This document shows positions 23,097 through 27,268 of a DNA stretch of 64,000 bases, piece after piece. Under the pieces are notes generated by a model. The model ran no database searches and was not told where the DNA came from. It worked only from the letters and a program-made list of their open reading frames with translations. This stretch comes from Methanoculleus formosensis (GTDB lineage Archaea > Halobacteriota > Methanomicrobia > Methanomicrobiales > Methanoculleaceae). The first letter of the stretch is position 1; each line of letters starts with the position of its first letter. Location: NCBI RefSeq assembly GCF_025384765.1, contig NZ_VHLL01000003.1, positions 124,001 through 188,000 of the forward strand, in the 5' to 3' direction. A program made the position numbers and the translations under genes.

Positions 23097-23369
23097 TGCC
23101 CGCTTCTTATCCCTAGGGACAACCCTCATCATCTCCTTATCTTTCAGGTATAACCAAGAGGGGATCTTGCCTGACAGCAAAAGGAGTGGCAAGAACTCTG
23201 CGGAAGGAATATGTGAAGGCGATTCACGAATGGAACTGAAATGTTGAAGTATTATATAAATGGAACTTCTCATTAACGATATAGGTCTCAATTGTTAAAT
23301 GGCAGACTTCCCTGCACTCCGAAGAGGTTTGATATGAGGATCGCTTTAGCACGCAATGAGGGTAATAGA

Positions 23370-23993
23370 ATGCCCTTTAAAGCTACTTTTGCCTTCTATG
23401 AGATTAGCATGGAAACTGGACCCAATGGGAGGATTCTATTGCAGGATATAAAATATGGAACTGATCAACTAATTGCGGATCATGTTTGGATCCATGATAA
23501 TCCATCTATCAAGAAAATGGCTGATTTGGATGAAGGAGATATAATCCGGTTTACTGCATTGGTGTATAAATATAGTAGGGATTATCAGCAAAATAAAGAA
23601 GGCGAAGCGAGTTCAGACTACGGACTTAAGGATATCCAGAATCTGGTCATCCTAACTAAAGGACAAAGAGGATCCTCTAGACTCCTAAATGAAAGACAAA
23701 GAGAATCCTTTAGTGGGATCTTCATCGGATGTGAGCTTAACACGGTACTTGGGCCAAGGATCCTATTGAAGGACATAATAGATACCCATGGTCGCCGAAT
23801 CGCATCTCACGGGTCGATTCGTGGTACGATTAAAGATATTTTTCCTGTGAAAGAGGGGGATCAGATTCGATTCACTGCAGTTGTCAGACACACAAATGAT
23901 CCTTGGCCGAAAAATGCCCCCAGTGAAAACAACGGCCTTGAGCATGTAGGAGATGTAGAAAATCTGACAAATAAACCGGGCTGTTTATCATAA
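23370..23993 (+). CDS. AT-rich island protein with two tandem similar domains
   Basis: I do not recognise this 207-residue protein. It consists of two copies of one module: RILLQDI...DLDEGDIIRFTALVYK...YGLKDIQNL (first half) and RILLKDI...PVKEGDQIRFTAVVRH...NGLEHVGDVENL (second half). The pattern of short beta strands around a G-D-x-I-R-F-T-A core suggests small barrel domains that may bind nucleic acid. ATG at 23370 is preferred because GAGGGT lies seven bases upstream. An ATG at 23334 and a TTG at 23292 are alternatives. A TATA box (TTATATAAAT) lies near 23250. Base composition is far more AT-rich than the surrounding chromosome, which points to transfer with the island. Confidence 0.7.
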   Translation: MPFKATFAFYEISMETGPNGRILLQDIKYGTDQLIADHVWIHDNPSIKKMADLDEGDIIRFTALVYKYSRDYQQNKEGEASSDYGLKDIQNLVILTKGQRGSSRLLNERQRESFSGIFIGCELNTVLGPRILLKDIIDTHGRRIASHGSIRGTIKDIFPVKEGDQIRFTAVVRHTNDPWPKNAPSENNGLEHVGDVENLTNKPGCLS

Positions 23994-24107: not shown

Positions 24108-24524
24108 ATGAGGCAGAGAGAAACCCTTCGCTACGACCAGACGCTCTTTCGCGACCGCGAGGTCTTCGAGTTCACCTACATGCCCGACGAGATCCATCAC
24201 CGCGACGCCCAGATCCGCGAACTCGCCCTCCTCGCCCGACCGGCCCTCCGGGGCGGCAGCCCGAAGAGCGCGGTCCTCCGCAGCCCGCACGGGACGGGGA
24301 AGACCACCACCGCCCGCCGGCTCTTTGTCGAGATCGAGGAGACGAAGCAGCAGATTGCCCCGGTCTACATCAACTGCCGGCAGCACCGGACGCCGTTCGC
24401 CGTCTTCGCGTGCATCTTTGAGGCGGTCGTCGGCTACACGCCCCCGGCGACCGGCAAGCATCTCGATGAGGTCGTGCGGCTGGCGGCGACGATCAAGAAG
24501 AACTTCGAGGAGCTTGGGGTATGA
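24108..24524 (+). pseudogene. Truncated Orc1/Cdc6-family ATPase, possibly fused to an HsdM tail
   Basis: The first 115 or so residues match the N-terminus of archaeal Orc1/Cdc6 initiator proteins: FRDREVFEFTYMPDEIHHRDAQ, Walker A SPHGTGKTTTARRLF, and APVYINCRQHRTPFAVFACIFE. A normal protein has about 400 residues with Walker B, sensor and winged-helix domains, all absent here. The last residues, VRLAATIKKNFEELGV, resemble the C-terminal end of type I methylase HsdM subunits, and the TGA overlaps the ATG of a YhcG gene, which is often found in such operons. A deletion that joined two genes would explain this. A TATA-like TCATATAC near 24078 suggests a leaderless start. The product should not bind origins normally. 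Confidence 0.65.
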
Positions 24525-25543
24525 CGGTCTCTAAACTGCCGGAGGATTACGGCTCGTTGCTTGTCGAGGTCAAAGAGCGCATTCGTGCCGGCCAGTACCA
24601 GGCGCTCAGGGCGGTCAACAAAGAACTGATCGGCCTGTACTGGGATATTGGCAGGATGATTGCCCAGAGACAGAAGAATGAAGGGTGGGGGAAGTCGGTA
24701 GTCGAGCGATTGGCGGGCGACCTTCAACAGGAGTTTCCCGGCATTAAAGGCTTCTCAATCCAGAATCTCTGGTATATGCGGCAGTTTTACCTGGAGTACC
24801 ATGGCAGCGAAAAACTCCAACCACTGGTTGGAGAAATCAGCTGGAGTCACAATCTCGTTATCATGTCGCGTTGCAAGGACCCGCTGGAACGTGAGTTTTA
24901 CCTTCGCATGACCCGTAAATTCGGCTAGTCAAAGAACGTACTGATCCACCAGATCGAAAACCAGAGCTACGAAAAGACGCTCCTCGGCCAGACCAACTTC
25001 GATCGGGCACTCACGCCGGAACTGCAGGCGCAGGCCAGACTCGCCGTCAAGGACGAGTACACCTTCGATTTCCTGGAACTCGCAGAGGAGCACTCCGAGC
25101 GCGAGCTGGAGCGCGCCCTGATTGGCAGAGTCGAAGACTTCCTGCGGGCCATGGGGGGAGTCTTTGCCTTCATCGGGAGCCAGTTCCGGCTGGAGGTCGA
25201 GGACAGAGAGTACTTTATCGATCTGCTGCTGTTTCACCGGCGGCTTCGCTGCTTGGTGGCCGTCGAACTGAAGATCGGTGAGTTCCAGCCCGAGTTCGTC
25301 GGCAAGATGCAATTCTATCTGGCCGCTCTGGACGGGCAGGAGCGCCAAGAGGGTGAAAATCCCTCAATCGGCATCATACTGTGTAAGGAGAAGAACCGCA
25401 CCATCGTCGAGTACGCCCTGCAGTCCTCCACCTCACCCATCGGCGTCGCCGCCTACCGGATGGTCAGAGAACTGCCACGGGAACTCCGGGATCAGCTCCC
25501 GGGCCCAGAGGAGATTGCGAAATTGCTGGAGGGGGGAGAATGA
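24521..25543 (+). pseudogene. YhcG/DUF1016 nuclease-like gene interrupted by an in-frame TAG
   Basis: The 340-codon frame encodes an N-terminal DUF1016 domain (LLVEVKERIRAGQYQALRAVNKELIGLYWDIG) and a C-terminal PD-(D/E)XK-type domain (EYFIDLLLFHRRLRCLVAVELKIGEF). It is broken only by TAG at 24926-24928. Upstream reads YLRMTRKFG and downstream, in the same frame, SKNVLIHQIENQSYEKTLL. The family has Trp (TGG) at this spot, so one G-to-A change explains the stop. The part after the stop could not start efficiently. The gene overlaps the preceding frame by ATGA. Pyrrolysine read-through is formally possible but not expected in this lineage. Confidence 0.85.
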
Positions 25544-27180: not shown

Positions 27181-27268
27181 TGTTTCTGCTCCGTGAAGAG
27201 ATTGTTTCCGTTCCAGAAACAAAGTGTTTCCGATCTGGAAACAGAATATTTCTGACCTGGAAACATCT
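27181..27268 (-). repeat. Four tandem 22-bp iterons with palindromic cores (operator array)
   Basis: Four units start at 27181, 27203, 27225 and 27247, exactly 22 bases apart, or two helical turns. Each begins with a 19-bp dyad. The clearest are TGTTTCC-GATCT-GGAAACA (27225-27243) and TGTTTCC-GTTCC-AGAAACA (27203-27221). The fourth is TATTTCTGACCTGGAAACA, and the first, TGTTTCTGCTCCGTGAAGA, is the most degenerate. They sit immediately upstream of the MNT start codon and cover its promoter region. Confidence 0.85.

Follow-up and report, generated by a model that had tools for sequence, protein, structure and literature searches.

The 22-bp array at positions 27181-27265 of the window (the whole 64-kb stretch of DNA that was analysed), immediately before an MNT gene, is very probably the operator of the MNT/HEPN operon, from which adjacent dimers of the winged-helix antitoxin (wHTH-MNT), one per dyad, would repress their own genes. 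As judged from sequence comparison, a dimer of the antitoxin would sit on each 19-bp dyad via its winged helix, and neighbouring dimers, spaced 22 bp or about two helical turns apart, would lie on the same face of the DNA. A row of two to four dimers would cover the region up to the start codon, or in certain clades extend across it, and would repress transcription of both antitoxin and toxin until a fall in free antitoxin lifts the repression. We infer here that it is the wHTH-MNT protein which binds the array, that each dyad takes up a single dimer, that the antitoxin represses rather than activates, and that HEPN has a role in the complex.

Both genes read on the minus strand. The ATG of the MNT gene is found at 27178-27176, and four units of 19 bp fill the preceding 87 bases, with gene-strand starts at -87, -65, -43, and -21 (-1 being the base that precedes the A of the ATG). 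Unit 4, the distal one (27247-27265, minus strand; plus strand TATTTCTGACCTGGAAACA), is a 19-bp dyad with one arm mismatch. Units 3 (27225-27243, minus strand; plus strand TGTTTCCGATCTGGAAACA) and 2 (27203-27221, minus strand; plus strand TGTTTCCGTTCCAGAAACA) are exact TGTTTC-N7-GAAACA dyads. The proximal unit 1 (27181-27199, minus strand; plus strand TGTTTCTGCTCCGTGAAGA) is a hybrid, half-degenerate unit, TCTTCACGGAGCAGAAACA, that ends 2 nt before the ATG and in the window genome has one good half only; relatives show TGTTCACGGAGC[AG]GAAACA at the place of this hybrid. A possible Shine–Dalgarno motif, GGAG, could be read from the sequence within unit 1 (27189-27192, minus strand).

The sequence-only reading had described four dyads, exactly two turns apart, that cover the promoter and reach to within three bases of the antitoxin start. 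The measured spacing of 22, 22, and 22 and the end of unit 1 bear out the second and the last of these points. As for the four dyads, three are good (two exact, one with one mismatch), and the fourth is the hybrid, a dyad in one half only. Coverage of the promoter found no direct support, as no convincing TATA box lies near the gene; a TATA-box scan of the upstream regions gave no consistent position and none clear enough to place the array on a promoter.

The array was then compared with the rest of the window and of the genome. It is the strongest 40-nt stretch of the 64-kb window at lag 22, with 32 of 40 positions identical and a maximum of 23 elsewhere. The two-dyad pattern TGTTY-N9-RAACA-N3-TGTTY-N9-RAACA, allowing up to three mismatches, matched three times in the window, always inside the array, and not once in 100 dinucleotide shuffles. 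With up to one mismatch, TGTTTC-N7-GAAACA has just one other, weak site in the 2.6 Mb genome, and beyond this one-mismatch site no second genomic target of the operator was found; the array site is all but unique there. The same genome holds 24 matches to PF01909 (nucleotidyltransferase domain), many of them minimal MNTs. No 22-bp array was found upstream of its other NTase-fold genes, which are mostly minimal MNTs, and the one weak lag-22 value among 22 NTase-fold genes (L129, p 0.015) corresponds to chance expectation. Gene starts were chosen mechanically in this survey, and for the window's own gene (L130) an upstream in-frame start was taken, so that the array was not measured there. At 23650-23713 the window also has about two copies of a 33-bp tandem repeat, overlapping an ORF at 23292-23993. 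Plasmid replication iterons were considered for the 22-bp array and rejected: it adjoins MNT and HEPN genes on a 292,674-bp contig, and no initiator was recognised beside it.

The wHTH-MNT antitoxin gene (P0001; 26621-27178, minus strand) encodes 185 aa, with the wHTH at about residues 5-69 and the MNT domain, carrying GS-x10-D-x-D, at about residues 96-150. The N-terminal winged helix that had been read from the letters is upheld by profile matches, on which this assignment is based. The N-terminus is ArsR/IclR/MarR-like and matches HlyU and CzrA in the winged-helix region, and over the MNT core Shewanella MntA (5yep) is matched. The MNT active site is intact, with G101, S102, D113, and D115 invariant in 34 homologues. 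The HEPN toxin gene (P0002; 26185-26643, minus strand; GTG start as listed; PF05168, E 7.8e-13) shares a 23-nt overlap with the MNT gene. Its product contains the Rx4-6H motif together with a nearby Tyr (RMRTQRHESQY, R-x5-H); in some relatives the motif His is replaced by D, Q, E, or N. The gene order is MNT before HEPN in an overlapping two-gene operon, and HEPN was detected in 42 of the 51 loci analysed. The pair shows the layout and the MNT and HEPN motifs of HEPN/MNT (type VII) modules, from which the antitoxin and toxin activities are predicted. With NF047752, the NCBIfam equivalog of MntA, the antitoxin scores 24.8 bits at a cut-off of 60; consequently, it is a relative and not an MntA equivalog. 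Elsewhere in the window a DUF1016/YhcG-type nuclease gene (24521-25543) appears to be broken, its N-terminal domain (24521-24928) and its C-terminal nuclease domain (25151-25543) lying in separate frames.

Similar iterons, whose absence upstream of all close homologues would have spoken against the sequence-only reading, were found there in nearly all cases and in phase. The antitoxin has a match in 65 of 232 genomes of the archaeal order. When lags of 8 to 45 were scanned with no motif fixed, 22 was the best lag upstream of 35 of the 42 homologues in the order. The mean lag-22 identity of these 42 homologues was 0.489 compared with 0.262 in shuffles (sd 0.007, maximum 0.278 in 300), and lag 44 was likewise raised (0.394). 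Broken genes (L027, L049, and L052) are prominent among the homologues that do not follow the 22-bp lag; L022 is a seemingly intact homologue lacking the 22-bp array. Within the genus the array is conserved, whereas the DNA farther upstream is not alignable; the period survives in homologues with as little as about 40% protein identity, although their site letters diverge. The architecture recurs outside the order: nine homologues from a second order of the phylum are preceded by AGTTCAY...RTGAAC dyads, and in eight of the nine two such dyads stand 22 bp apart. In some clades the last unit overlies the start codon and the second codon (ATGAAC), which would explain the constant Asn at residue 2 in these clades. 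In two species of the genus a second copy of the antitoxin gene survives as a winged-helix remnant of 60 aa (L053, in the window's own genome on C5 near 149891-150070, and L054). It has neither an MNT match nor HEPN, and a TGTTCAC-type 22-bp array still precedes it.

The two-dyad pattern was also used to search 231 genomes of the order by DNA alone. It gave 22 loci in 22 genomes, and the reversed pattern gave none. A wHTH-MNT gene, intact or broken, lies directly downstream at 17 of the 22 loci, and a remnant of the gene at another two (L136 and L153). The remaining three (L142, L145, and L155, with two-dyad arrays at 1501-1541) have no recognisable gene and are perhaps fossils of lost modules. 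Five viral contigs (L161-L165) match the two-dyad 22-bp pattern as well; a protein search of viral contigs found no relative.

The half-sites share TGTT at positions 1-4 and vary at positions 5-6. Residue 46 of the antitoxin sits in the helix that is aligned to the ArsR-family HTH of HlyU. Where this residue is Arg (VSRYL), 131 of the 150 half-sites have C at position 6; where it is Gln, Pro, or Gly, 103 of the 104 have A, G, or T there, mostly A or G by array. Counted by array, position 6 is mostly C for 24 of 25 Arg proteins and for none of the 23 Gln/Pro/Gly proteins (Fisher p 1.6e-12, uncorrected for relatedness); the lone Arg exception, L050, is a broken gene. The residue-46/operator class changes about three to four times on the tree, which leaves one or two independent pairs. 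We therefore rejected the association as a statistically independent one, the switches being too few, and after correction for descent the co-variation is of little statistical weight. The counts are suggestive, not proof, of a co-variation of position 6 with residue 46. A contact of Arg46 to the G paired with the position-6 C would be usual chemistry.

We considered three other explanations for the array. A different, trans-acting winged-helix regulator could bind the sites and have other targets besides the MNT/HEPN operon; any ArsR/MarR-type dimer could read such dyads, and the window genome does encode other winged-helix MNTs. Against such a regulator stand the near uniqueness of the site in the genome, the shift of the site letters in step with the recognition helix that the neighbouring gene itself encodes, and the fact that the two-dyad pattern marks the wHTH-MNT gene family in other genomes. 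We hence regard it as unlikely. That the repeats work as RNA, as hairpins of the 5' leader comparable to type III repeat RNA antitoxins or to a translational operator, is in our opinion very improbable, even though the dyads might fold into short stems, with the proximal unit right beside the start codon. As an indirect test, the disagreements between the two arms were counted in 110 distinct units. At the pair 7-13 there were 28 C-A and 19 U-G disagreements, at the pair 5-15 there were 23 and four, respectively. C-A is unpaired in the sense RNA, and each half-site behaves like a separate copy of a single degenerate word; disagreements that are mostly C-A fit DNA half-sites that are independent of each other and bound by a protein dimer. 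In addition, the strict 22-bp phasing has no obvious RNA reason, and it is the MNT enzyme that would be expected to neutralise the toxin.

A chance tandem duplication without function was the third possibility. Such an event is simple for a stretch of 22 bp, and three arrays do occur without a gene. The comparative data contradict this explanation, as the period is kept in the homologues to the identity level given above despite sequence change, and the reversed-pattern controls gave zero matches; the chance of its being correct is negligible.

Operator function with self-repression by the wHTH-MNT antitoxin can be compared with several known systems. HEPN/MNT has been called the most abundant predicted toxin–antitoxin module in prokaryotes, and MntA-type antitoxins are without a DNA-binding domain (PMC7641770). 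Makarova et al. (2009) doubted that the putative antitoxin, then taken to be HEPN, regulates transcription and postulated a DNA-binding partner in trans (PMC2701414). The Shewanella oneidensis MNT SO_3165, which has no predicted DNA-binding domain, nevertheless binds its own promoter, where two dissimilar palindromes are found, and represses 1.6-fold in vivo (PMC4621449). The window pair resembles this HepT/MntA type VII system (SO_3166/SO_3165) in having the MNT gene first, an overlapping HEPN gene and GS-x10-D-x-D, and in the known system the MNT is reported to bind its own promoter, as is proposed for the window antitoxin. The window antitoxin differs from SO_3165 in the N-terminal winged helix fused to the MNT and in the phased array of like dyads. 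The control mode had been called poorly described; this holds for winged-helix MNTs, for which a literature search with few subscription papers found no description of operators, but not for MNT autorepression as such, already reported for SO_3165 (PMC4621449).

The two proteins also hit the PADLOC candidate system PDC-M05: residues 3-172 of P0001 align with its A component (PDC-M05A, E 1.4e-9), and P0002 with its B component (PDC-M05B, E 9.3e-5). PDC-M05A fits two paralogues of the same genome far better (E 1.7e-51 and 3.6e-50), neither of which showed the 22-bp array. Judged by these profile matches, the window antitoxin family is a distant branch. The ArsR/SmtB repressors HlyU and CzrA align in the winged-helix region, recognition helix included; the difference is that the window protein carries its DNA-binding domain joined to an NTase.

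The AbiE (type IV) systems likewise have a winged-helix antitoxin, AbiEi possessing the winged-helix fold, and tandem inverted repeats upstream of the antitoxin gene. In AbiE the NTase is a separate toxin and there is no HEPN, whereas the window antitoxin is NTase and winged helix in one protein. Membership in AbiE was rejected because a separate AbiEii/DUF1814 NTase toxin is missing and the partner is HEPN (PF05168). AbiEi and Rv2827c exert negative autoregulation via two and four tandem inverted repeats, respectively, upstream of the antitoxin gene; AbiEi monomers occupy 23-bp repeats 3 bp apart, and the Rv2827c repeats are 4 or 13 bp apart (PMC7319586). In the window array, by contrast, each 19-bp unit is itself a dyad. 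Autoregulated toxin–antitoxin operons with tandem repeats are already known, and a winged-helix MNT with a phased operator would be a new form of them.

For the window pair, cooperative autoregulation had been predicted. Autoregulation is strongly supported, because the iterons are in phase upstream of nearly all close homologues and the half-sites change with the recognition helix. Cooperativity between the dimers we infer only from the constant two-turn spacing. Since cooperativity is positive for AbiEi and negative for Rv2827c (PMC7319586), caution is called for before positive cooperativity is assumed in the wHTH-MNT array.

In more distant winged-helix MNT genes, among them paralogues in the window genome, dyads of other types frequently precede the start codon directly. 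Putative operators phased at 20 bp (TTGAAY...ATTCAA type) were observed at L057, L059, L096, L097, L098, L102, and L104, operators phased at 21 bp at L103, L107, and L109, and single-dyad operators (GTTCGTATATACGAAC) at L058, L089, L090, and L100. The presence of such dyads suggests that winged-helix MNTs are generally controlled by operators in cis, of which the 22-bp array would be this branch's version.

A more far-reaching and rather doubtful idea is that the array reads the chemical state of the toxin. The wHTH-MNT protein together with unmodified HEPN would leave the operator or tighten on it, and repression would report nucleotidylation. If this were true, an enzymatic antitoxin would be coupled directly to transcription, and winged-helix MNTs as a whole would regulate through specific operators that differ between subfamilies, some being single dyads and others phased at 20, 21, or 22 bp. 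As to self-repression, the best-studied members of the family are not built for it, unlike the wHTH-MNT antitoxin as proposed here, and the phased operators of the winged-helix branch would be an answer to how HEPN/MNT modules can be controlled in cis. About fifty naturally varied protein–operator pairs are available for working out the recognition, and both existing modules and the traces of lost ones can be found by the DNA signature alone, independently of protein sequence.
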